Source of the DNA: Clostridiales bacterium | Lineage (GTDB): Bacteria; Bacillota; Clostridia; Christensenellales; Borkfalkiaceae | DNA: 64,000 nt | Assembly: GCA_015069605.1 (NCBI GenBank) | Contig: SVII01000001.1 | Span: forward strand, 72,359-136,358 | Direction: 5' to 3' | Part shown: positions 19,190 to 33,186 of the stretch, piece after piece | Layout: every line of letters begins with the position of its first letter | Position numbering within the stretch: position 1 is the first letter of the stretch | The notes under the pieces: generated by a model | What the model was told of the DNA's origin: nothing | The model's input: the letters and a program-made list of their open reading frames with translations, nothing else | The model's database searches: none | Program-made: the position numbers and the translations under genes

Positions 19190-19879
19190 TTAGCCTTTAA
19201 AAACAGCTTCGACACGATGAATCGGCAAGCCTCTCTCCACCCATTTTTGTTCGTATTCCGTCACGATATTCCATTCGGGATTACCGTTCTCGTGTAAATT
19301 GTACGTCACGTTTTCCAAATCAAAGCCGCAAGCCTTGTATTCTTCCAACGAAAAATCAAAAAAGTCTCGATCGTCCGTTTTTTGTAAAATCCTGCCACCT
19401 TTTTTCAGCAGCTTTTTATATACTTCCAAAAAGTTACGGTGTGTCAAACGTTGCGTCGCGTATCCAAGTTTAGGTAACGGAGTCGAAAAATTCAAATAAA
19501 TCGCATCCAAACTTCCCTCAGGGATATAACAGGGCAGACATTCCGCGCGAATGTTGAGAAAACGAATATTCTCAATCCCTTGTTTTTTCACTTCTTCCAT
19601 AGGTGTCAAAATGACGTTACTCATCTTTTCCAAAGCCAAATAATTGACGTCGGGGCTCGTTTTTGCCAACGCGCAGACAAACCCGCCTTTACCGCAACCG
19701 ATTTCCAAAGCCACACCGTTATCGTTTCCAAACGCCGCTTTGAAATCAATCAACGCACGATAACTTTCCGCCGCTTCTTTCATATTCAAAATCCCGTTCG
19801 CGCCACGTGCCAACAAAAGATCTCCACACGCGTCCATTCTCGCGTCAAAATTCCGCTTTTTCCTCATTCTCATCGACAT
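19190..19879 (-). CDS. trmB: tRNA (guanine-N7-)-methyltransferase
   Basis: LEIGCGKGGFVCALA SAM motif, TrmB-like C-terminus (TEYEQKWVERGLPIHRVEAVF). Confidence 0.9.
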   Translation of the reverse strand: MSMRMRKKRNFDARMDACGDLLLARGANGILNMKEAAESYRALIDFKAAFGNDNGVALEIGCGKGGFVCALAKTSPDVNYLALEKMSNVILTPMEEVKKQGIENIRFLNIRAECLPCYIPEGSLDAIYLNFSTPLPKLGYATQRLTHRNFLEVYKKLLKKGGRILQKTDDRDFFDFSLEEYKACGFDLENVTYNLHENGNPEWNIVTEYEQKWVERGLPIHRVEAVFKG

Positions 19880-19928: not shown

Positions 19929-20369
19929 TTATTTCGATCCCGTACTTCCAAACCCGCCTTCACCACGAACGGTATCCGTCAATTCTTCCGCTTCTAAAAA
20001 CTCCGCTTTCAAGAAAGGAGCAACGACCAACTGTGCGATACGCTCACCTGCCGCCACCGTTTGCGCGATAGAAGAATGATTATGCAAAGCCACCATCACT
20101 TCTCCGCGGTAATCGGAATCGATCACCCCCACCTTATTCGCAGGTGCAAGCCCACGTTTGCAAGCCAACCCACTGCGCGCGTAAATCAAACCTGCATACC
20201 CTTCGGGAATTTCCATCGCAAGCCCCGTGCAGATAAATTTCGTTTCACCGGGCGCAATCACCACGTCCCCGTCCGCCAAAGCGTACAAATCCGCCCCAGC
20301 CGCCGCCACCGAACCATACGTAGGCAACACAGCTTTTTCGTCCAATTTTTTTACAGCAATCGTTGGCAT
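19929..20369 (-). CDS. dut: dUTP diphosphatase
   Basis: dUTPase motifs (YARSGLACKRGL, GVIDSDYRGE, GERIAQLVV, RGEGGFGSTG). Confidence 0.92.
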   Translation of the reverse strand: MPTIAVKKLDEKAVLPTYGSVAAAGADLYALADGDVVIAPGETKFICTGLAMEIPEGYAGLIYARSGLACKRGLAPANKVGVIDSDYRGEVMVALHNHSSIAQTVAAGERIAQLVVAPFLKAEFLEAEELTDTVRGEGGFGSTGSK

Positions 20370-20464
20370 AATTTTCTCCATTTTAAAAAATTTTCGTCAT
20401 TTCACGACATATTATACCACACCCAGTTCACCTTGTCAAGCATTGCACTCGTCCATATAAAACA

Positions 20465-20558: not shown

Positions 20559-21041
20559 TTACACCTTTTCCAATAAATAATCGTATAACGTTCTGTAATA
20601 TTCCCCTAAATACTGCGGAGCAACCTCATCCGCCTTGAACATATTAAAACGCTCCGAGGCATTCGTGTACGTGTTCATATAATAATCTCGCACCGCATAG
20701 TAACGATCCGGGTACTCCAACGAATAGTCCACTTCGTATGGCGCGTCCGTCGCTTCCGTTTCCTCCACTTTTGTCGAGAAACGCAAATAAAACAACAACG
20801 CATCGCGCACCGCCTCCACTTCCTGCTCGTATTCCGCCCGCAATTTCGTCTGTATCAACGGCCACATATCCGAAAGCAAAGTACCGTTTTCCACCAAACG
20901 CTCCTTTTCCTTTTGCAAATTCTCTTGCAATTTCGCCGTCAGTCTGTTTTTATCCAACTGCGCTTCTTTCACCTGCAAAATTTGTTCTTCCGTCAATGCC
21001 GCGTATTGTTTATCGGTGTACGTGATAATATCAATTTCCAT
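20559..21041 (-). CDS. hypothetical protein, last gene of phage-head module
   Basis: 160-aa intact ORF co-oriented and compactly placed with head genes. Confidence 0.6.
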   Translation of the reverse strand: MEIDIITYTDKQYAALTEEQILQVKEAQLDKNRLTAKLQENLQKEKERLVENGTLLSDMWPLIQTKLRAEYEQEVEAVRDALLFYLRFSTKVEETEATDAPYEVDYSLEYPDRYYAVRDYYMNTYTNASERFNMFKADEVAPQYLGEYYRTLYDYLLEKV

Positions 21042-21097
21042 ATTCTCCTCCTAACCTTTATCGCGCCCCATTACGGTTCATTTTATCATTTAGACTT

Positions 21098-22459
21098 TTA
21101 AGCCGTGTATGAAATCGCCAACTTTCTAACGATCGCGCCCTTTTTCAAAGTGAAACGTAATGCAAAACTTTCTCCAACAAGCCCCATTCTAACCACTGCT
21201 TTCCCGTCAATAAATTTCACCGCTTTTTGCTTGACGGTTTGTCCATCGTCCACCTGAACAGTCATTTCACCTTCACCCTCAAAACACAACGACTTTAAGT
21301 TCTTTTTACCAACAACCCCAAAATCTAAACATTCCGTTTGAAAGCAATATTCCTCGCCGCCGTACAAATCGCCGTCGCAATCCACGTATTTCACTACCCC
21401 TTCCGCCACGCACATAGCGTATTGATCCGTCCTCGACAAGCCGTTGAGATAGGAACAAAAATACCCACTTTTACCATCTGCCGCAAGCACCAACGTCACC
21501 GCGCCTTTCACCTTGTCTGCATAGCGAATGAGCACTCGATCTCCTACGCACGCCGCGCCGCATTGTACCGAATACATCGGTTTGACGTTCAATTCCTGAC
21601 AAATTTTTTGCAATGTTTTTCCGTCGAATGTATACACCCCATCATCCGCAAGGAAAAACAGCTTTCCGCCGCACTCACAAACGGTTTCACCAAGGACATG
21701 CCCCCCTGCATACGCCAAGGGCACTTGTTTAAAATCACGCGCCGAACCAGCCGGAATTAATCTCGTGATACCATATTCGTAGAAAATGCAAATCTCGTTG
21801 CCGAGTTGTTTCATTGCGACAATCTTCCCCGCCGCTGATGGTAAATGTATCTTACCGCTGTCATCAATTGTACTTTCAAAATTTAACGTTTCCAATGGTT
21901 TGGAATACGCCACGGTAAATGGTTCGATTACAACAAATAAACGATCGTGAAACACACAATTTGCCAAACCCGCCTTCGTCAAAATCGATCGCGTGTATCC
22001 TCTATCAGGATCGTAACGTGTCACGCCAAGCCCACCGATAAACAGAGTTTCCACTTCCAAGTCCGCATTTATGACGCCAACAACGTTCGTTGCACCGCCA
22101 AACACCAACGTTTTCACAAACGCACCCGTTGTATGGTTGTATAAATAATACTTCCCATCCTCCAACATATACCCTAACTGATTGTTATATACTCCGTCCG
22201 AATGTTTTGTTCTATGCAAATAAAACGAACGCACTGCCGCGCTTTCCATTACATACGTTTTCTCATACGGAGTGAGATAATTTTTTAATCCCAACCCCGT
22301 TTTTATTGTTCCGTCCGCGCAATCGCAATTTCTCCCATCTACGCCAAACAGCGTACCCTTTTTATCCCTATCCACGAGGGAAAAATTCTCAAAACGCACT
22401 ACCCGTGTCCGCGCCGAACGTTTTATAGGTTGTTTTTTTACCCCGACCATTACGCCCAC
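21098..22459 (-). CDS. phage neck/hub-like protein, beta-propeller-like (P22 gp10-type by position; tentative)
   Basis: 453-aa repetitive beta-rich sequence (FHDRLFVV.., LFFLADDGVYTFDG); placed after capsid and adaptor genes. Confidence 0.45.
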   Translation of the reverse strand: MGVMVGVKKQPIKRSARTRVVRFENFSLVDRDKKGTLFGVDGRNCDCADGTIKTGLGLKNYLTPYEKTYVMESAAVRSFYLHRTKHSDGVYNNQLGYMLEDGKYYLYNHTTGAFVKTLVFGGATNVVGVINADLEVETLFIGGLGVTRYDPDRGYTRSILTKAGLANCVFHDRLFVVIEPFTVAYSKPLETLNFESTIDDSGKIHLPSAAGKIVAMKQLGNEICIFYEYGITRLIPAGSARDFKQVPLAYAGGHVLGETVCECGGKLFFLADDGVYTFDGKTLQKICQELNVKPMYSVQCGAACVGDRVLIRYADKVKGAVTLVLAADGKSGYFCSYLNGLSRTDQYAMCVAEGVVKYVDCDGDLYGGEEYCFQTECLDFGVVGKKNLKSLCFEGEGEMTVQVDDGQTVKQKAVKFIDGKAVVRMGLVGESFALRFTLKKGAIVRKLAISYTA

Positions 22460-22998
22460 CTTCTCGAACGCATCCTCTCACACGGTTTTGCGTGATACGC
22501 AGCTGCGATCGCCTCTTTGTATTTTTTATCCCATACCGCCGCGTCCTCAAACAAACAGGACGCCGTTGCATATTCCGCCGCCACCCCGTACGTAAACAAT
22601 CGTACCGAAGCCTGCAAAACGTAATCGCTAACCCCGTCGACATTTTTCTTATCCGGCGTGTACGTGTACGTAATTTTCACCTTACCTGCCTGCGTCTTTA
22701 CGTAATCAGGAAAGAGTTTGAATTTCACCGAATTTCCCCACTCATCCGTTACACGCAAAATTCGAACAACGGGTTTTGCCAAACGAGAAAACTCGATCGC
22801 ACCCGTTTCCGAGATCATCTCATCCTCTGCATACAAAGGCAGATAATCCAGTGCCAATTCATTTTCCACTATATTAAAACAATGTAAAAGCAACTCCGTT
22901 TTTTGTCCATCCGTACTTTCGCCGTTGACGTACGCTTGTACTTCTTCCTCAATCCCAAGCACCGTCGCCGCAGACAAAATAATTTCTTTTACCGTCAT
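22450..22998 (-). CDS. head-tail adaptor/connector-like phage protein
   Basis: Helical sequence MTVKEIILSAATVLGIEEEV... with GGAGG upstream, immediately after capsid gene. Confidence 0.5.
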   Translation of the reverse strand: MTVKEIILSAATVLGIEEEVQAYVNGESTDGQKTELLLHCFNIVENELALDYLPLYAEDEMISETGAIEFSRLAKPVVRILRVTDEWGNSVKFKLFPDYVKTQAGKVKITYTYTPDKKNVDGVSDYVLQASVRLFTYGVAAEYATASCLFEDAAVWDKKYKEAIAAAYHAKPCERMRSRRWA

Positions 22999-23036
22999 TT
23001 TTACCTCCTTTTCGCGTTGATCGCATATTTGTAAAA

Positions 23037-23074
23037 GGTACCCGTTATTACGGTTCAACGCGTACACGGGTACC
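23037..23074 (-). terminator. perfect 9-bp-stem hairpin directly after capsid gene (putative attenuator)
   Basis: GGTACCCGT (23037-23045) and ACGGGTACC (23066-23074) with 20-nt loop; minus strand continues TTTTAC. Confidence 0.55.
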
Positions 23075-23106
23075 CCAAACAACTATTTAGACGTCTTCAC
23101 TAAACA

Positions 23107-24282
23107 TTAAGATTCGGTAACGCCATAAATCTTACCCTGACCGCAAGGACGTTCGCAAATGAGTTCCGCATATTTCACAAGCGTCGCGGTATATACAGGT
23201 TTACCAGGCACCTGCTTCAAGATTTTACCGTCTTCGCCTTCCAACCATTGCCAATCGCAAAGCTGATGCAATTTGAAATCGTTGGTATTTAAGAAATACA
23301 TTGTTCCGTTCGTGCAAAATCTATCCGCAATAATGGGAATACCGTGGAAATCCAATGCTTTATAGCCGTGTACGTCCATCGTAGGAAGCGTAACCCCTGC
23401 CGTACGGAAAAATTTCACAATCGAACGTCTTACACCGGGGGAACAAAGAATAACGTTAATTTGACTGCCCGACGTTGCCTCGATTTCGTCGATTGCTTTT
23501 TGAATGATTTCTTCCGTAATCGCACCAAGATCCCCTTTCACATACGGCGTCATATATTGATTACTATTCTTTTCCACGCCGTAAAGATTGTCTACGTCCC
23601 CCGAAAATAATGCTTCAACGCCCGTGATTTCATTTCCCCAACAACCATGCATTGCCGCGTACGCGCCGATGGTAATCGCACCTTCGGGGATGGTAGGGCC
23701 GCCAAACGTAACCGTTCTATTCACTCTATCCACAGCAACTACTTTACGTTTTGTTGCCTCCTCAACGGGTCTTTTAAGCGCGTCGTAAAAATCTACTTCC
23801 ATGCCCTCGATCATCGCTCTAACCGTTTCAAAGGTAAATGTGTTATTTCCACCAACCGCAAGAACTCTACCGATCGTACCCGTACCGTCACTGTATAACA
23901 TTCTACCAAAGTTATACTGCGAATTCTTCAACAAAGACTCCATTTCTTCATTGAGAAGATTGACAAACGAACCTTCATTGTTCGCTGACGCGCGCAATGC
24001 TTTATCGGAAATTTCAATCGTGCCGTAAAGGTTCTTTAACGTCGCCACGAACTGCATGTAATTGCCATCCAACGCCTGAGGAAGATTCCCCGTTTCCGTA
24101 CCCGCGCCAATACCGCCGCTGATACCACTTTTAATCGTTTTTCTGATATCTTTTCCCACCACGTTAGACGTAGTCTGTTGAATCATCGCCATCAAAGGGT
24201 TTGTTTTCATATTTAACGCGTCTTTCACCGCGTCAAGATAATAAGATTTCAATACGCTATCTGCTGTTTGCACTGTTACCAT
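23107..24282 (-). CDS. phage major capsid protein-like
   Basis: 391-aa ORF (NLYGTIEISDKALRASANNEGSFVNLLNEEMESLLKNSQYNFGRMLYSDGTG...) of phage coat type, between scaffold-like and adaptor-like genes. Confidence 0.75.
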   Translation of the reverse strand: MVTVQTADSVLKSYYLDAVKDALNMKTNPLMAMIQQTTSNVVGKDIRKTIKSGISGGIGAGTETGNLPQALDGNYMQFVATLKNLYGTIEISDKALRASANNEGSFVNLLNEEMESLLKNSQYNFGRMLYSDGTGTIGRVLAVGGNNTFTFETVRAMIEGMEVDFYDALKRPVEEATKRKVVAVDRVNRTVTFGGPTIPEGAITIGAYAAMHGCWGNEITGVEALFSGDVDNLYGVEKNSNQYMTPYVKGDLGAITEEIIQKAIDEIEATSGSQINVILCSPGVRRSIVKFFRTAGVTLPTMDVHGYKALDFHGIPIIADRFCTNGTMYFLNTNDFKLHQLCDWQWLEGEDGKILKQVPGKPVYTATLVKYAELICERPCGQGKIYGVTES

Positions 24283-24296
24283 AAATTAATTTCTCC

Positions 24297-25142
24297 TCAC
24301 ATTTGATTATTTGATTTAAAAAATCGAAGTGCCATATCCCCTGCATCTAAAATAGATTTTGCTTTTAACGGAGGCGTAGTCACCACGCCGCTGCCCGCAA
24401 ACGTTACGGGCGCGCCCGTTTTTCCAATCGACGCAAGATATTCTCCAATGATACGCAACCTCGTTTGTTCGTCACAGCTCACCTTTTGATACAGTTCTTC
24501 GGACGAAAGCGCCGTTTCTCCCTTTTCTGCAAACGTACGGACGCCCTCTCCCTGCGTGTTCGTGAAATGGTTTTCACTCGCGTCCTTCGCTTCCGCTTTC
24601 GCCTTCAAACTGCTTTCTTGGGTTGCCGCAACCGTATTTTCACCAACTTCCTTTTCGTTTTCCGAAGATTTTGCATCCACAGCTACAGCCGTTTCCTCTT
24701 CGGACGAACACTCGTTAGCGCCGCTTTCCGCCTTTTGAGCGTAAGCCTCTTCTTTTGTTTCCTCTGCGGGTTCATCCACTTTCGCCTGCGTTTCCACGTT
24801 TCGATTGTTTTCCATATCAAACACAAAACTATCAAACTGCTTCGCCGCCGCCTTTCTCGCCTGCGCATTCTTACGGAGCTTTTCCGCCCCCAACTCACCC
24901 AAACGAGCCTTTTCCATTTCCGAATTTTCCGCCTGCCGTTCCAATTCTTTCAAACGCTGACTTCGTCTTGTAAACTCCGCCTGCAAAGAACTGTAAGCCC
25001 TCGCAAGGGCGTCTACGTCCTTAAACTTCCCCAAAACCGCCGAGGCATCTTCCTTGCGCGCTACCTCTTTCGCCGCATTTTCTACCGTCTCCGTCGCCTC
25101 CGTTGTTTCCGTTTCCGCGTAAACGTTCTCCTTTTCGATCAT
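24297..25142 (-). CDS. phage scaffold-like protein
   Basis: Highly charged coiled-coil-rich Glu/Lys/Ala protein between portal and capsid genes. Confidence 0.6.
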   Translation of the reverse strand: MIEKENVYAETETTEATETVENAAKEVARKEDASAVLGKFKDVDALARAYSSLQAEFTRRSQRLKELERQAENSEMEKARLGELGAEKLRKNAQARKAAAKQFDSFVFDMENNRNVETQAKVDEPAEETKEEAYAQKAESGANECSSEEETAVAVDAKSSENEKEVGENTVAATQESSLKAKAEAKDASENHFTNTQGEGVRTFAEKGETALSSEELYQKVSCDEQTRLRIIGEYLASIGKTGAPVTFAGSGVVTTPPLKAKSILDAGDMALRFFKSNNQM

Positions 25143-25167
25143 ACTTTCTTTCCTCCTATTCTCTCTT

Positions 25168-27054
25168 TTACATTTCCTGTTGTGTTTTCAAAGCCTTTTT
25201 ATGCGCTTTGATGTGAGCCATAAAACGTTTTTTGATTTCCTCTTTATTACGACTTCTCTTAAATTCCGCAGACAAAAGGAATCGAATATGCTCGGAAACG
25301 TGTAAATCGTGGTCGTCGTATTCATCCACCTGCATATCCGCTTCCTTCATATCCAAATTCTCCTCACCTGCTTTCGCGATATGTAACGAAGAAATATCCT
25401 TCGCGTTTTCATAGCTACCAAACCCAAACGCTTCCAAAATACGGTTTTTACTTTCCGCCGTCAATTTTCCATCGTCGTTTGTCAATACGCCAGCTTCAAA
25501 CAATCTTAACAGCGTCGCCTTTTTCTCCGCAGGCGTGGACGTTTCTTGCGATTCAAACTGAATATCGTTCACCGACAAATTTTTCGCATTGAAATAATAC
25601 GCCTGCGCACGTTTGTTTTCCCCCGTCAGCGTCATCAATCTCGCCGTTCCCGCAAATTGACGATACAATCGCAAAATCTGTCTGCCAACCTCTTTCATCG
25701 CTCTTTCAATACTGCAAACGGTAGCCGACAATCTCGACTCGTCCTGCGAAAGCAACAACTGTAACCCCGTCGCGCTAGTGACGCGCATTGGACTGGAATT
25801 TTGCGACAACTCGCTAACACCGCTAATCAACGCAAACTCGTTTTCCAACCATTCTTCCTCATCCTTAAACTCGCTGGGTACGTTACCGCAATCGAGCATT
25901 TCAGGCGCTTTTCCACCCTGTCTATACACAAGAATTTTCCCTGGCAACAAACCTTCTTCCGCCAACTCGTCCGTATCCACCGAACCGTCCTCCACCGTCA
26001 ACACCCCCATCGACAAACGATTCAAAAATTCGTGTTTTCTGTTACGAACGGCATTGTACGCACGCTGCACGGGAATCAAACGATCGACAACGCTGCTCGC
26101 AAAAAACGCACCGGGCAAACGCAAGCAATCCTGTTTCACAAAAGGCAACCCTCTCACGCCGCGTTCCTCGTTGATAAAGGGCAACGGCCCGCGATAAAGT
26201 AATTTTCCACCTGCAACAATTTCCAATCTCCCATCAGGATTTTGCGAATCAGGACGAGTATAACGCTCGATTAAAATCTCACTGTCCTTTACCACCGTCG
26301 ATTTCATACCGCCAAACTCCGAAGGCAGCTTCGCCGCCGACGGTTCACTGTACCCAAAAGACGAAGGAATTTCTCTACCGGGCAACGCCACGCCAAATCT
26401 TTCAAAAATATACCCAACCGACACCGCTTGCGCGTGAATAATACTCGTCACCGCTTCCATATCCTCTGCGTTTAAACGATCAGGAAATATCTCAAACGGC
26501 GACACAGCGGTAACCTGAGTTTCTCCCTCATACACAGGCTCACCAGCCTCGTCAACGCATACCTGCCTGCCACCTTTCTCATCCCAAACGATTTTATAAA
26601 AGGCACTGCCGCACGTTTCCGACCAAATCGTAGCCTTGGAAACCGTCTGTGCGAAATCGATACGTTCCAACGCGTATTTCAAAACGCCCGTCGCAAGTTT
26701 CGCCGCTTGCAAATCCCCATCCTCATCGGAAAACGCACGCACTTTGAGTTCGGGTTTCATCTTTTCCAACTTCGCAATTCTAGAATCGATGGTTGGCGCG
26801 ATATGGTTAAACACTCTTCTCGCCTGCCAGTAAAAACGCTTATCCTCCTCTACAATCCCCCCAAACGGAGAAATATCACAATACTGATTTCCGCTGAAAA
26901 AGTTGATATTCAATAACCAACCGTTTTCCACCGCGCGCCTTTCTTCTCTGCGTTGCAAATAATCCTCCGTCACCTCTTTTGCAAGTTTTTCTTCCTCTCT
27001 CTGTTTGGCTTTTTCCTGTTCTTCTCTTGTCATTTTTTCCTCAAAAAGCTCCAT
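25168..27054 (-). CDS. phage portal protein (podoviral/P22-like type)
   Basis: NHIAPTIDSRIAKLEKMKPELKV..., VSPFEIFPD, RVTSATGLQLLLSQDESRLS; position after terminase. Confidence 0.8.
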   Translation of the reverse strand: MELFEEKMTREEQEKAKQREEEKLAKEVTEDYLQRREERRAVENGWLLNINFFSGNQYCDISPFGGIVEEDKRFYWQARRVFNHIAPTIDSRIAKLEKMKPELKVRAFSDEDGDLQAAKLATGVLKYALERIDFAQTVSKATIWSETCGSAFYKIVWDEKGGRQVCVDEAGEPVYEGETQVTAVSPFEIFPDRLNAEDMEAVTSIIHAQAVSVGYIFERFGVALPGREIPSSFGYSEPSAAKLPSEFGGMKSTVVKDSEILIERYTRPDSQNPDGRLEIVAGGKLLYRGPLPFINEERGVRGLPFVKQDCLRLPGAFFASSVVDRLIPVQRAYNAVRNRKHEFLNRLSMGVLTVEDGSVDTDELAEEGLLPGKILVYRQGGKAPEMLDCGNVPSEFKDEEEWLENEFALISGVSELSQNSSPMRVTSATGLQLLLSQDESRLSATVCSIERAMKEVGRQILRLYRQFAGTARLMTLTGENKRAQAYYFNAKNLSVNDIQFESQETSTPAEKKATLLRLFEAGVLTNDDGKLTAESKNRILEAFGFGSYENAKDISSLHIAKAGEENLDMKEADMQVDEYDDHDLHVSEHIRFLLSAEFKRSRNKEEIKKRFMAHIKAHKKALKTQQEM

Positions 27055-27070
27055 TCCTATCTCCTTTCGC

Positions 27071-27448
27071 CTATTTCTTTTTCGTGCGTTTCACCGCCGC
27101 GCCCGTCTTTGCTTTTACTGTCTTCTTCCGTTCTTCCTTTTCAACGCCTGCCTTACTTTCTTCCAACGCCGCCAGCAGCCTTACGCGTTCTTTTTCAAGT
27201 TCCTCATCCGTCCAAGCCCCGTATTCGTCATTGCCTTCGTTCGCGAGTAGCATCTGCACCGCTTTAAGATCGGGCGGCACGTCCTTTTTCGTCTTTTTAC
27301 GCTTCGTCAGCTTCAATTCCCCATCCACTTCCGCGTATTCTTCCGTGACTTCCGCCACCTGATACCCAAGCGCCACTTTCAAGAGCGCGTCGTTGATTTT
27401 TTCATCCGTCTTCTCTTTCTTTTTTTCGTTTCTTTTTTTCTCGGCCAT
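27071..27448 (-). CDS. small phage protein, terminase-small-subunit-like (tentative)
   Basis: Lys/Glu-rich with VPPDLKAVQMLLANE...WTDEELEKERVRLL motif; next to the large terminase gene. Confidence 0.45.
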   Translation of the reverse strand: MAEKKRNEKKKEKTDEKINDALLKVALGYQVAEVTEEYAEVDGELKLTKRKKTKKDVPPDLKAVQMLLANEGNDEYGAWTDEELEKERVRLLAALEESKAGVEKEERKKTVKAKTGAAVKRTKKK

Positions 27449-27522
27449 GCCTCTTCTTCACCTCTCTCTTTTTTCACTCAACGCATACCTACCCCCTTCC
27501 TTTGAAATAGTTACCCGAAAAT

Positions 27523-28959
27523 TCAGAATTTGATGTTGCCTTGTTTTAACCTTCTTAAACGTTTCTCTTTATCCCGCTGAATTTCCGATTTTGCGCCACT
27601 GCCAAGCGAGCCTTTCGGTCTTGTCATTAAATAATACCGCATCTCATCCAAACTGTGATCATCCGCCTTTCGCGGCGCGTCGCCGCTGCCCCAATAATAT
27701 CCTTTCAACTCCCGAATTAGGTTTACACAACTTTTGAAAATGTAAATATTCGGCAAACCGTTTTTTTGGTTTAAGTAACTCTTGACTCGCGATATACCCG
27801 AAAACAAATCCTTTTCCACGTCGGGATTGACCAAAATCCCCCGTTCGTAAAACAACTCCACAACACTCTTCACACCCGAAAGTGTCCGCTGCTTCGCCGC
27901 GCTGTCAATCAAAGCGCAAATCCTTCCCCTCGAATCCGTTTTCCAACGCAACCTCTCGCAAATCCGCTTAATTGCGTCCGCATGGTAATCAATGTCCCTT
28001 CCTGCCTCAAAGTGTTCATAGACCACGTACACGTTATCGTCAAAATCCACCGCGTACCAATGCGCCGACAAGGGATTGTTCAGTCCTGGGTCAATGGAAA
28101 TGGTATCCTGCCATTCCATAGGTACGTCAAACGGCTCAATCACGTGTATTCCCTCGTCAAATTCCGGATATACCAACCCCTCTGCCGCCGACGCAAACCT
28201 ACCGTATCGCCGAGCCTGCAACGTCCGCTCGTCCATACTGCCCTCCAAGAGCAAAATTTCCTTTTCGTCCAGATAGGGATTATCACTCCATTCCACGAAC
28301 TCATACCACACTTCAGGGTCATTCCGTCTATTGATAAAAATCTCGTTATACACAAACGTCAACCCTTTCAGCGGCGTCATCGTTCCAAACACGTCTCCGC
28401 GCCTATCCATAACACGCATACGGCATTCCCGATAAATATCCTCAGGCGGTTCTTCGTCAAACCACACAAAATCCAACGACGCGCCCTGAAATTTTTCTCG
28501 CCCTTGATCGCAACTTTTAAATCCAATCACCGAGCTCCCACCCAAAGCATTTTTCACACGGATAAAATCAATAATCCCGCTTTCAGGAGAATCCTTTCTA
28601 CCGCTGAGCATCACAATTTCCTCAATCCAATCCCGACGTAAATACCGCAAAATCTTCTTTTGTGCCACGTCGCGCTGTACCTGCAAGGATAGCGATACCA
28701 CCCAGCCACACACGTCTTGCCGATTTTCACGGTACGGATGAATCCCACGAGCCATATACACACACTCCACCGCGCCGCATTCCGTTTTCCCCGAACGGTT
28801 TCCGCCGAATACCCAACGGTTACGCTTTGGACATTTATGAAACGCCAACTGTTTTTCGTGTTTGACTTCGCCCGTGTTGTACGCCGCCAAATGATCGTTT
28901 TCTCTTCTACGCCGCAGTTCCGTTTCGATTTTATATAACTTTTCTACAATTTCTCTCAT
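27523..28959 (-). CDS. phage terminase large subunit
   Basis: FGGNRSGKTECG Walker A, LDFVWFDEEPPEDIYRE Walker B, nuclease-domain Asp motifs (SIDPGLNNPLSAHW). Confidence 0.9.
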   Translation of the reverse strand: MREIVEKLYKIETELRRRRENDHLAAYNTGEVKHEKQLAFHKCPKRNRWVFGGNRSGKTECGAVECVYMARGIHPYRENRQDVCGWVVSLSLQVQRDVAQKKILRYLRRDWIEEIVMLSGRKDSPESGIIDFIRVKNALGGSSVIGFKSCDQGREKFQGASLDFVWFDEEPPEDIYRECRMRVMDRRGDVFGTMTPLKGLTFVYNEIFINRRNDPEVWYEFVEWSDNPYLDEKEILLLEGSMDERTLQARRYGRFASAAEGLVYPEFDEGIHVIEPFDVPMEWQDTISIDPGLNNPLSAHWYAVDFDDNVYVVYEHFEAGRDIDYHADAIKRICERLRWKTDSRGRICALIDSAAKQRTLSGVKSVVELFYERGILVNPDVEKDLFSGISRVKSYLNQKNGLPNIYIFKSCVNLIRELKGYYWGSGDAPRKADDHSLDEMRYYLMTRPKGSLGSGAKSEIQRDKEKRLRRLKQGNIKF

Positions 28960-29118
28960 AAAATTTTAAAATCTCCCACAACACGTCCCCACAACTTCTT
29001 TATAATAGCTTATGTCGCTTTCATCAGCGCCCGCCGTTGCCAAATGCAACAACACACAACGAATACCACAAAAAACTTAGGCAACCACCTTTGACCTCTT
29101 TTCTTAAAGAATTACGCT

Positions 29119-29871
29119 ATGAAAAATTTCAAACTCACTCTTTTTACGTTTATACAAATCCTATTACTGTTGCTTTTGTGCGCACGCCCAACCGCTCTTT
29201 CCAACGCTTTCGACGTTCGATTTGCGCTCGCGGACACTGTTACCGCACAACCGACCGCAGGTTCGTACGCCTGTATTCTTTCGGATACGACGTATTTCTA
29301 TTCCGCGCCCGATCTTCGTCGCGGCGTGTTCGTCCTACCCAAAACCTACTACGTCAAACTGCTTTCCTACGACAGCGATTTTTGCAAGATCGAATACCTC
29401 TACGACGATAACGATTGCCGTAAACTCATCGGCTACGCCCAAACGGATAAACTCACGTTCGTGGATTATATCCCAAACCGCCCGTACTTGTACTACCTTT
29501 TCGACGTACAATATTACATAGACGATACCGCACCGAGCGACTCTTCCTTTTTAAACCAGCTCACCGTCACCTGCGTGTATTACGGCGATTATAAAATCGG
29601 TTCAGAAACCTATTGTTACGTTTTGCGCGGCGAGTCTTTCGGCTATATTCCAAAACCCTCAACCCTTATCTACGAAGAAAACACGGAATACGCCGACCGT
29701 TTCCTATCCACCCTTCCCGACACGCCCACGCAATCCACGCCTTTAGAAGAAGAAAAAAGTTCCTCTCCTGCGCAGATTGCCATTCTCATTACGCTGTGCC
29801 TGCTTGTCCCCATTCTCGCCGCGCTCATCTTAAAACCGCCCCACCGTCCCCCTTACGAAACCAACGAATAG
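29119..29871 (+). CDS. secreted/membrane protein with SH3-like region and C-terminal TM
   Basis: N-terminal signal peptide, C-terminal TM (IAILITLCLLVPILAALIL), GESFGYIPKPS segment. Confidence 0.6.
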   Translation: MKNFKLTLFTFIQILLLLLLCARPTALSNAFDVRFALADTVTAQPTAGSYACILSDTTYFYSAPDLRRGVFVLPKTYYVKLLSYDSDFCKIEYLYDDNDCRKLIGYAQTDKLTFVDYIPNRPYLYYLFDVQYYIDDTAPSDSSFLNQLTVTCVYYGDYKIGSETYCYVLRGESFGYIPKPSTLIYEENTEYADRFLSTLPDTPTQSTPLEEEKSSSPAQIAILITLCLLVPILAALILKPPHRPPYETNE

Positions 29872-29872
29872 C

Positions 29873-30388
29873 TCAGCGTATCCAACGCCGCTCGTCCTGC
29901 GACACCTTTCGATCCTTCCCCTCGTGAACAAACGTATGTATCTTTGCAAAAATCTCCAAAGTGGCGTAATCACGTAAATAGATATCCTCAGTAATCCCCG
30001 CGCTTTTCAGCATAGCCCCTACTTTTTCGGACAATCGTTGCTGACGTCGAAAATACGCACGCTCTCCTCTCGCGGAATCCACCAAAGGATTTTTCTCCGA
30101 AGTAAACCGAAATTTCTTAATCTTTCGCTTTTTTCCAAAATATCGAATGGAAACCAACGTCCTCTCCACGTCGTCCAACCTTGCCAATACCTCTTCAATT
30201 TTCCCTTTCAGCCATTCCAGCTTTCGTTTACGGAGAATTTCCTCCGCCAGATATTCCGCCAACTTTTCCGTCGAAAGCGAACTGTCATACGATAACAACG
30301 CCTTATTTTTAATATGTTCCGCGTAATCCTCGCCAACCGTTTTCAACATCGGATACGCATACAGCACCACTTTTGTATAATTCTCCAA
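29873..30388 (-). CDS. ArpU/RinA-like phage transcriptional regulator (sigma region-4-like; tentative)
   Basis: DVERTLVSIRYFGKKRKIKKF...ERAYFRRQQRLSEKVGAMLKS resembles the HTH of late-gene activators; upstream of head genes. Confidence 0.45.
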   Translation of the reverse strand: MENYTKVVLYAYPMLKTVGEDYAEHIKNKALLSYDSSLSTEKLAEYLAEEILRKRKLEWLKGKIEEVLARLDDVERTLVSIRYFGKKRKIKKFRFTSEKNPLVDSARGERAYFRRQQRLSEKVGAMLKSAGITEDIYLRDYATLEIFAKIHTFVHEGKDRKVSQDERRWIR

Positions 30389-30729: not shown

Positions 30730-33186
30730 ATGAGAAAAATTGCGAGAACAATTTTATTCCTTTGTCTTGCCACCGCGTTCGTTATGCCGAAAAGCGCGGG
30801 TTTTTGCGTACAAGAAAAAAACGCCCAAGCGGACGGCGCAAAACATTCTTTCACGGCGCAAACGGACAATGAAAAAACGGAACTTGTTTCCCCCTCGTCC
30901 TATCGTCAGTATTTGTCGTTGAACGATCCGTCTGACGTAGCGGTTTCAGAGGATTACACGGCAATCGCAGACGGAAACATAATCTACGTATATGACGAAG
31001 CGGAAGAAACGTATTTGCAATACGAACACGACAAAAACGCCGAAAGTTCGTATAACAAAGTGACAAAATTGCAATTCGACGCCACGGGAAATTTGTATTT
31101 CCTCGACGCATCCACGCATTTGTACGTACTCGATCCCACTACTGTGGACGAAGACGGTGAGGCTGCGGACACACAATTTACTTGCAGTACGTTTGCTATT
31201 CATGACGAAACGTTGTATTTCACCAACGTCACAACGCAAACTCCGCTTTCCAAAGTCGCCCTCTCCTCTCCCGACATCAGCAAAGCAACGACGCTGGTGG
31301 ATAAATTATCTTCCAAACCGACGATTACGTTTTGGGAAGACGAGCTGTACTATACGGACGGCGGAAAATATTTGAATAAAATCAATCCCTATGACGAAAA
31401 GCCCACACCCGTATTTCTCGCGGCATTCCCTGCCGAAATCGTGTCTATGACTATGTACGGCGGCAGCTTTTTCGCCTCGGATATCGACGGCAACTTTTTC
31501 GCTTATAATTTATCCGAATTGACGGAAACGGCGTCGGCGGACAAACTCATCCCCACGCATTTTTCCTCAGGCGGATATTCTTCCCTTTCCAAGTTCGGAA
31601 ACGAAATCTATGCCGTAAAAAATCATACGATTAAACAATACTCTATCGACGCCGTAGCTTTTACCGATTTTGAAATCGGCAACGCGTCGGATGCCATCAA
31701 CCGTTTAGACGGAGCGACGGACGTTTGCCTTTCAGGGCATAAACTGTTTATTGCAGATGAAAACAACGCTCGAATTTCTGTGTACGACACCACTACGCAA
31801 ACGTTTGATGCGCCCATTTCCACAACCATGTCCCCTGCGTTTATGACCTCGGACGGTGCAACGTTGCTTTTGGGTAACGAAGCCGCCGTCGCTTTATACG
31901 ACCTGTCCGCAGAAAATTACGGCAACGAACTGTTGACGGAAAAACATTTCAGCGGCGACGTGGCAGGCGCGGCTTGCGTGTACGGAACGTATTATATCCT
32001 CACCGAGCGCGGCTATTTTTATCAACTGACAAACGCCGAGGGAACGAGTGAATGGACGATTACGCAAACGCAAAAATCCTTGACGAAAACTCCTCGGTTA
32101 TTGACGTCAGATGCTTACGGGAATTTGTACGTAGCGTTCGATAACAACTCCGTATTTTGTTACAGCGAAGAAGAATTTATGATGCCTGCGGCAACGGGAA
32201 AGGAAATTTTAGAAACTCTGCCCGCGCAAACAAAAAAATTGGCGGTAGATTACCGCGGTAATTTGTACGCATTTGCGGAAAACGCTTTGCATAAATTCAC
32301 AAAAGCCGAAAACGGCGACCACGTAGAAAATACAAGCTATTCTTTGGACGGCGAATACGTGTACCAAACGCAAGCGATTGCAAAATCTTTCGCTTTCGGC
32401 ATCGAAGAAAACGCAACCTACGTGTTATACGAAGGCAATTATTTAATCAAGAGCGCAGCGCTTGAGCTTCCCACAGTAAAAAACATCCCTGTCAACAGCG
32501 CAGACGAATACATTTTCAGCGCGGAAAGCGCGGAATTTTCCGTTGTCAAAACCAAGCCCAACGCTCTGATTGTGGAATTTGACATCAACGCCTTGCAGGG
32601 CGCAACCGAATTCCCTTATCTCGCTTTTGAACGTAGTGAAACGCCGAAAACGGCTTTGCAGATTGGACAAACGGACGAATACAACATTCTCGCCGTGTTT
32701 GACGAAACGAAGAAACAATACTCCACCTATCTTGTCGAAACGGAGTATTGTGAAAGCTATCCTGATGAAGAATACCGCACGCAGTACGCGGAAGAAAATC
32801 GCGTAGCGGCGTATCTTATTAACGATATTCCCTTGTACAAATTCCCCTATTTAACTTCCCTTTTGACCGTTTGCAATATGCCGCGCGGAACGGAAGTGAC
32901 GTTGCTTGGAGAGATTGATAAACTTGACCACGCCTATTATCAAGTCGCCTATACAGACGAGAATGGGGAAATCAAAACGGGGTACATTCCCAAAGTCTAT
33001 GTAACGCTTTTCAACGGCGAACCGCAACCCGAAACCATTGTTTTGGGTGAAACGGAAAGCGACCACGATGCCTTGTGGCGTTGTGCATATATTTTACTTG
33101 GGTTAGGCGCAATTTGTATTTTAGTCGATTATCTATTGCTTCGAAAACCCAAAAACGACGACGATAACAACGCCCCCACCGCTTAA
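30730..33186 (+). CDS. membrane-anchored extracellular beta-propeller-like protein with SH3-like C-terminus
   Basis: Signal peptide, repeated NHL/propeller-like blades (FDATGNLYFLD, DAYGNLYVAFD, DYRGNLYAFAE), C-terminal TM. Confidence 0.65.
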   Translation: MRKIARTILFLCLATAFVMPKSAGFCVQEKNAQADGAKHSFTAQTDNEKTELVSPSSYRQYLSLNDPSDVAVSEDYTAIADGNIIYVYDEAEETYLQYEHDKNAESSYNKVTKLQFDATGNLYFLDASTHLYVLDPTTVDEDGEAADTQFTCSTFAIHDETLYFTNVTTQTPLSKVALSSPDISKATTLVDKLSSKPTITFWEDELYYTDGGKYLNKINPYDEKPTPVFLAAFPAEIVSMTMYGGSFFASDIDGNFFAYNLSELTETASADKLIPTHFSSGGYSSLSKFGNEIYAVKNHTIKQYSIDAVAFTDFEIGNASDAINRLDGATDVCLSGHKLFIADENNARISVYDTTTQTFDAPISTTMSPAFMTSDGATLLLGNEAAVALYDLSAENYGNELLTEKHFSGDVAGAACVYGTYYILTERGYFYQLTNAEGTSEWTITQTQKSLTKTPRLLTSDAYGNLYVAFDNNSVFCYSEEEFMMPAATGKEILETLPAQTKKLAVDYRGNLYAFAENALHKFTKAENGDHVENTSYSLDGEYVYQTQAIAKSFAFGIEENATYVLYEGNYLIKSAALELPTVKNIPVNSADEYIFSAESAEFSVVKTKPNALIVEFDINALQGATEFPYLAFERSETPKTALQIGQTDEYNILAVFDETKKQYSTYLVETEYCESYPDEEYRTQYAEENRVAAYLINDIPLYKFPYLTSLLTVCNMPRGTEVTLLGEIDKLDHAYYQVAYTDENGEIKTGYIPKVYVTLFNGEPQPETIVLGETESDHDALWRCAYILLGLGAICILVDYLLLRKPKNDDDNNAPTA

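Follow-up and report, generated by a model that had tools for sequence, protein, structure and literature searches.

The locus and its genes

The subject of this study is a compact phage-like gene module at positions 20559-30388 of a 64,000-nucleotide stretch of DNA (hereafter the window), which lies on contig 7 of a metagenome-assembled genome (MAG; 1.34 Mb, 84% complete) of a Clostridiales bacterium from the family Borkfalkiaceae. An initial annotation, made from the letters of the window, had proposed an intact and co-oriented set of genes running from terminase to tail hub. This gene set stood up to reanalysis: all phage-like or linked open reading frames (ORFs) were found uninterrupted at the coordinates below, most of them with matches in PHROGs, Pfam or structure searches. 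Read 5' to 3' on the minus strand, the order is g171, TerL, TerS, portal, scaffold, capsid, adaptor, nozzle and a 160-amino-acid protein (g160), while sh3p, placed between g171 and TerL, is the sole plus-strand gene.

20559..21041, minus strand: g160, short homologue of DUF7934 (PF25588); hhalign against full-length DUF7934, 98.3% probability
21098..22459, minus strand: short-tail nozzle (P22 gp10 / T7 gp12 type); AlphaFold2 model (pLDDT 93.9) and Foldseek search of the PDB
22450..22998, minus strand: head-to-tail adaptor, podovirus type; AlphaFold2 model (pLDDT 92.9) and Foldseek search of the PDB
23107..24282, minus strand: major capsid protein, HK97/SU10-type; phrog_14242 major head protein (E 1e-43), Pfam SU10_MCP
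24297..25142, minus strand: scaffold-like protein, variable in length; lies between portal and capsid, where its profile is also recovered in relatives
25168..27054, minus strand: portal, P22-type; Pfam P22_portal (E 2e-18), SU10_portal, phrog_156 (E 6e-36)
27071..27448, minus strand: small terminase TerS; phrog_309 (E 1e-6), found in relatives too
27523..28959, minus strand: large terminase TerL; phrog_2 (E 1e-31), Terminase_6N, ATPase and nuclease motifs intact
29001..29007, minus strand: TATTATA (-10-like) element upstream of TerL; genus alignment of the TerL-sh3p intergenic region
29119..29871, plus strand: sh3p, predicted secreted protein, SH3-like repeats, membrane anchor at the C-terminus; profile found beside TerL in other families
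29873..30388, minus strand: g171, probable late-type transcription activator (RinA/ArpU, sigma-region-4-like); weak phrog_36 match (E 0.048)

Genes were assigned with PHROGs and Pfam at the sequence level, and with AlphaFold2 models and Foldseek for the nozzle and the adaptor. The nozzle model matched the tails of Pa223, VP1, GP4, SU10, P22 and T7 (E values to 1e-19), and the gene itself matched phrog_3287, a virion structural protein (E 1e-6). The gene that had been annotated as a propeller-like hub is thus real, but its structure model identifies it as a podovirus tail nozzle. The adjacent adaptor-like gene was confirmed as a podovirus head-to-tail adaptor: its model matched the podovirus tails of KHP30, Pa223, SU10 and N4, with RcGTA neck proteins appearing as weak matches only; its start is probably at 22998 rather than 23082. 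Because a podovirus nozzle and adaptor are encoded, the module represents a head plus a podovirus tail base, and its earlier description as head-only has to be dropped. The P22-like gene order was confirmed, with a P22-type portal, an adaptor and a gp10-type nozzle following one another; this speaks for descent from a P22-like podovirus and does not make the module a virus. The g160 product is coiled-coil-like, and may act as a needle or plug.

The terminase has kept its motor. Walker A, Walker B and TMTP (coupling) motifs were present in 119 of 119 TerL relatives, the catalytic Asp residues did not vary in the alignment, and no second Terminase_6N gene turned up in the 84%-complete assembly. 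The assignment of g171 gains from its orthologues in relatives, which match phrog_36 (E 1e-8) and Sigma70_r4_2 (E 3e-6). For sh3p the Pfam search gave no match, and its domains were read from the sequence alone. The TATTATA element is kept through most of the genus, with no conserved -35 element, a pattern that would fit activator-dependent transcription.

The ORF list, PHROGs and Pfam revealed no integrase, replication, primase or alpA-type gene in the module, and no spike, ejection or excision gene was recognised there. The window contained no tRNA genes, and an Rfam search found no RNA. The GC content of the module (46.5%) compares with 44.8% for the remainder of the window.

Conservation, inheritance and selection

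The capsid gene was found in 142 of the 151 genomes of the window's family, always as a single copy and in all 18 genera (18/18); among high-quality genomes of the family the count was 98 of 103. Two of the 142 genomes hold remnants only (G061 and G206). Within the genus, TerL was present in 35 of 36 genomes, plus partial or second matches in a few; full-length matches were 75-84% identical and single in most genomes. The exceptions were one genome with a fragment only and one with two identical-looking copies, the latter probably a binning duplicate. No TerL was found in two relatives of the same-genus set, among the less complete MAGs.

The chromosomal position is conserved as well. In the same-genus neighbourhoods that were read, the order g160-nozzle-adaptor-capsid-scaffold-portal-TerS-TerL-sh3p-g171 is kept, and most of these loci are flanked by dut/trmB, by env818, or by both, as expected for a fixed locus and not for variable prophage sites; the most divergent locus (L038) has neither flank. 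In the window, the flanks named by the initial annotation, dut/trmB and a cell-envelope gene, were indeed found, with mgtE accompanying env818 on the side opposite trmB/dut:

19190-19879, minus strand: trmB, adjoining dut
19929-20381, minus strand: dut, adjoining the module
30730..33186, plus strand: env818, an 818-amino-acid secreted beta-propeller-like protein with a membrane anchor; synteny and weak Pfam propeller matches

Within the genus env818 is a conserved neighbour, and its place in the module is uncertain.

Profiles built from the genus recovered the same core order in at least 10 families of the order, at different chromosomal sites. A particular case is family f28 (genomes of 0.8-1.2 Mb, 99-100% complete), where in three genomes the module occupies two loci 39-104 kb apart, one with g171-sh3p-TerL and the other with TerS-portal-scaffold-capsid-adaptor-nozzle, a short DUF7934 gene and two holins, all genes being open. 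Since g171 and sh3p remained with TerL after this split, both are members of the module. TerL is likewise separate from the capsid genes in family f76. Proteins of 786-813 amino acids that adjoin TerL in f28 were considered as env818 homologues and rejected, as no relatedness was detectable.

To follow its inheritance, a FastTree phylogeny of TerL, capsid and portal from ten families was compared with an rpoB host tree. The two trees agreed in 87.6% of quartets, against a mean of 33% and a maximum of 40% for label shuffles; counting between-family quartets only, 245 of 330 agreed. Both trees recovered the groupings f1+f19, f18+f28 and f3/f6/f10/f24, and one well-supported conflict was left, among deep branches. 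The median ratios of nonsynonymous to synonymous substitution rates (dN/dS), taken from pairs at dS 0.5-1 that mostly represent sister genera and whose partly saturated dS inflates the values, were 0.21 for TerL, 0.22 for portal, 0.34 for capsid and 0.75 for nozzle, the fastest evolving module gene, compared with 0.11 for the flanking trmB. Purifying selection acts on TerL, portal and capsid; the ratios of about 0.2 for TerL and portal are far from the value near 1 expected of decaying genes. At 103 loci the capsid gene was full length throughout, and TerL and portal were full length except for one each (copies present and uncut by contig ends). The few broken copies found are exceptions and are tied to inserted defence islands. 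Taken together, the single copy, conserved locus, family-wide presence, co-diversification and purifying selection bear out the proposal of a domesticated capsid or gene transfer agent (GTA)-like system under selection, and we regard domestication and vertical inheritance of the module as established with very little doubt.

The broken copies share sequence features of their own. A shared sequence end (AAAAGTCTAACCC...GGGCA) interrupts TerL at one and the same codon (~267) in three genomes of the family (L365 5571-13780 in G061:C20, the contig ends L324 and L326 in G218 and G206, and G206:C36:15317-15451); it occurs once in each of the three and nowhere else among the 151 family genomes. In G061 it encloses an island with a C5-methylase and Thoeris (ThsA), the far side of which lies in the capsid gene at about codon 340; G206 holds the same capsid remnant. 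Three gut contigs labelled as viral carry restriction-modification islands inserted near capsid codon 380 (L210 ~6480, L234 ~11150, L256 ~5525), of the type I, McrBC, and methylase plus Mrr-like kinds, all beginning with the same AAAAGTCTAA-type motif, and the contigs of several g28 genomes terminate at capsid codon 380. It seems possible that a family of defence islands is aimed at the particle genes of the element.

Relatives beyond the family

Across the order, the capsid gene was present in 139 of 248 sampled genomes and in 115 of 201 high-quality ones; it is rare in the remainder of the class. As a control, the same capsid family was found sporadically in a class-level family (f48; 3 of 38 genomes), which is the pattern expected of mobile phages. 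The bearers are mostly uncultured gut or rumen Clostridia, and Candidatus Borkfalkia (Christensenellales in the NCBI taxonomy) is among the named relatives retrieved by the capsid search. ComEC was found both with and without the module and is therefore uninformative. Several individual genomes deserve mention. G128 has two intact capsid genes side by side (L193 7536-9880), and the single-contig genome G069 has capsid loci at C1 988376 and 2225465 with a DUF7934 gene at each. Outside the order, G617 (L183) carries intact capsid and scaffold genes among housekeeping genes, and G393 (L181) capsid, scaffold, adaptor and nozzle in a similar setting with TerL elsewhere; both sets lie near a serC-like gene and are perhaps further domesticated ones.

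The module differs between families mainly at its tail end. The DUF7934 gene directly follows the nozzle in most families examined; in family f33 the DUF7934-type protein bears a LysM domain, and an f18-type clade has a pair of long fibre-like genes after the nozzle. The holins BhlA and Phage_holin_1 are encoded inside the module in related families. BhlA was a single-copy gene in members of f3, f6, f10, f18, f24 and f28, adjoining the module where it could be placed, and was absent from all six module-less genomes (0/6) and from the sampled f1 and f19 genomes. Lysis genes are lacking in the module only in the window's family and one sister family. The earlier statement that integrase, replication and lysis genes are missing holds for the module of the window; as regards lysis it does not extend to relatives with holins inside the module. 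The ancestral module probably carried holins of its own, and release in the window's family must proceed via genes elsewhere or without holins. A second operon (fibres, endolysin) in the window's own genome, sought via DUF7934 and BhlA only, gave no confident match.

Further small genes occur in other families. A zinc-ribbon-like gene lies between TerS and portal (L192 12703-12933, L028 9949-10188, L198 12171-12389), and a gene for a protein of ~100 amino acids between capsid and adaptor (L192 8672-8992, L027 6063-6299); no counterpart of either was seen in the window's module. Between the terminase-like and portal genes of G473, a relative at class level, lie an Amidase_2-SLH endolysin gene (L185 14572-15285) and genes for small membrane proteins, with housekeeping genes as flanks. 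In G041 (family f6) a phage-integrase-family gene directly follows the holin (L366 11480-12394), and no other integrase gene adjoining the module was seen in the families read.

Free phages are only distantly related. Among 50,697 phage records, the best full-length matches of capsid and portal were 23-28% identical over most of the protein and came from the Arthrobacter phages Jasmine and Adat, Microbacterium phage Shocker and Cellulosimicrobium phage DS1, which differ from the module in being free phages of ~45 kb. In IMG/VR, scanned with a narrower capsid alignment because the broad one was too divergent, at least 126 relatives of the capsid were found, and the nearest apparent free phage relatives were ~27% identical. 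Matches at 45-57% identity were rejected as viral, since they share the gene order and some carry sh3p, g171 and env818; these fragments look like bacterial chromosome misfiled as viral. Neither the phage records nor IMG/VR yielded an intermediate phage, and a literature search found no paper describing this locus.

Function and alternative explanations

By the published definition of GTAs (PMC9662315), several genomic hallmarks are found here: particle proteins derived from caudoviricetes (at the protein level only), endogenised genes without mobility functions in the module and at two loci in f28, and mostly vertical inheritance with co-diversification of element and host. The distance of 39-104 kb between the two f28 loci would make packaging of the whole gene set unlikely. 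We consider it likely that the module is a domesticated, vertically inherited GTA-like element from a short-tailed (P22/SU10-like) phage that moves host DNA between cells; a GTA-like function is the best explanation of the genes, and host DNA packaging, control by g171, particle release and DNA delivery are deduced from them. In such a scheme, g171 would activate the operon in response to some state of the host, TerS and TerL would load a small capsid with pieces of the host chromosome through the portal, and the adaptor, nozzle and DUF7934-type protein would complete a short tail. Lysis of a few cells could then free the particles, with the lysis function of the window's family coming from elsewhere.

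Among known systems, the module comes closest in plan to one from Faecalibacterium, FpGTA I, whose podovirus-like operon measures 10.5 kb and whose ~40 nm particles contain 8.4-8.9 kb of host DNA (PMC12946183, Nat Commun 2026); the likeness was drawn from the description of the gene plan and not from sequence homology. Both systems are compact (10.5 kb versus ~10 kb), encode TerS, TerL, portal, scaffold, capsid and short-tail genes, and lack replication genes. FpGTA I is also near-ubiquitous in its genus and resides in a Gram-positive gut anaerobe, and its lysis and fibre genes, which in some strains lie in a second operon elsewhere, count as a further likeness. However, particles, DNA and proteomics were shown for FpGTA I while the present module is known from genes alone, and FpGTA I belongs to one genus whereas the module spans an order and has a linked activator and sh3p. 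RcGTA and RcGTA-like elements of alphaproteobacteria share vertical inheritance, co-diversification, purifying selection and several loci with the module, but the RcGTA tail is long (49 nm; PMC9662315) instead of a podovirus nozzle. With P22, SU10 and other short-tailed phages the module shares the order portal-scaffold-capsid-adaptor-nozzle, and its modelled nozzle and adaptor folds match tails of the P22/SU10/T7 type; it differs in having no recognised spike, ejection, replication, integration or excision genes and in not being mobile.

Several points weigh against a transfer function. Neither particles nor packaged DNA nor transfer have been observed for the bearers identified here. The window's family yielded no lysis gene or tail fibre; with the MAG 84% complete, absent parts could be merely unassembled. 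Several lineages of the order are without the module, which must be dispensable over long time scales, and the dN/dS values carry the saturation mentioned above.

The principal rival explanation accepts domestication and gives the capsid another job, for example as PBSX-like DNA-filled killer particles or as DNA-release particles without gene delivery. PBSX of Bacillus subtilis, a domesticated Firmicute phage, packages host DNA, although its contractile tail and gene content differ from those of the module. It offers a precedent, being discussed as a killer of the tailocin kind and not as a transfer agent (PMC12946183). This explanation draws on the fact that the evidence supports domestication and DNA packaging genes, with delivery deduced, and on the missing tail fibre in the window's family. 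However, the portal-adaptor-nozzle channel has been kept, which would have no obvious use in a DNA store or killer, and the TerL motor is fully conserved, so that we judge such a role unlikely. An encapsulin-like or empty shell was rejected on account of the conserved portal, TerL motor and nozzle.

The different chromosomal sites among genera and families might instead reflect a series of captures of related phages, made separately by each genus or family, in place of a single ancient domestication. Moves within a genome would also produce differing loci, as the f28 split illustrates, while the module tree tracks rpoB between and within families, several families retain the linkage of sh3p and g171 to TerL, also where the module has split, and no intermediate phage was found; repeated capture is thus very improbable. 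Still less credence attaches to an ordinary or decaying prophage without visible integration and lysis genes, despite the caudoviricete-like nature of all structural genes and the integrase gene beside the module in one relative within the order (L366). The module is single-copy in nearly all family genomes, at a conserved locus in the genus and congruent in its trees; its core ORFs are intact at ~100 loci, the other families read show no integrase adjoining it, and phage-like relatives such as those in f48 are sporadic. The integrase, replication genes and variable insertion sites of a temperate phage are not seen. Least probable of all is a satellite of the capsid-forming phage-inducible chromosomal island (cf-PICI) type that borrows helper phage tails. 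Its appeal is the likeness of cf-PICIs to a packaging-plus-head module as compact as this one, but the module has no integrase, primase or alpA-type genes, shows family-wide vertical inheritance in place of mobility, and encodes a nozzle and adaptor of its own instead of depending on helper tails. Distribution, locus and trees led to the rejection of both the prophage and the satellite.

GTA-type packaging of Christensenellaceae DNA (two genera) has been reported in gut particles with no known locus, and the search for that locus used other MAGs (PMC12946183). The module could be the locus behind this packaging. On balance we favour, with rather less assurance than a GTA-like function as such, an old, order-wide GTA lineage of short-tailed phage origin in Clostridia of the Christensenellales type. 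Its domestication would be separate from that of RcGTA, and possibly from that of FpGTA; the lineage would have its own activator and a dedicated sh3p, and it would account for the Christensenellaceae packaging.

Only few GTAs have a known genetic basis, nearly all of them alphaproteobacterial, and the first report of a podovirus-type GTA dates from 2026 and concerns a single genus (PMC12946183). Should it be confirmed as a GTA, the module would be a second and far wider short-tailed case, covering hundreds of uncultured gut and rumen species, and the locus of the chromosome-carrying particles of Christensenellaceae would become directly testable. Viral databases list dozens of contigs with this module as viruses. 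Inherited over many families and kept even in genomes of 0.8-1.2 Mb, the module makes a strong natural case for selection maintaining such elements.

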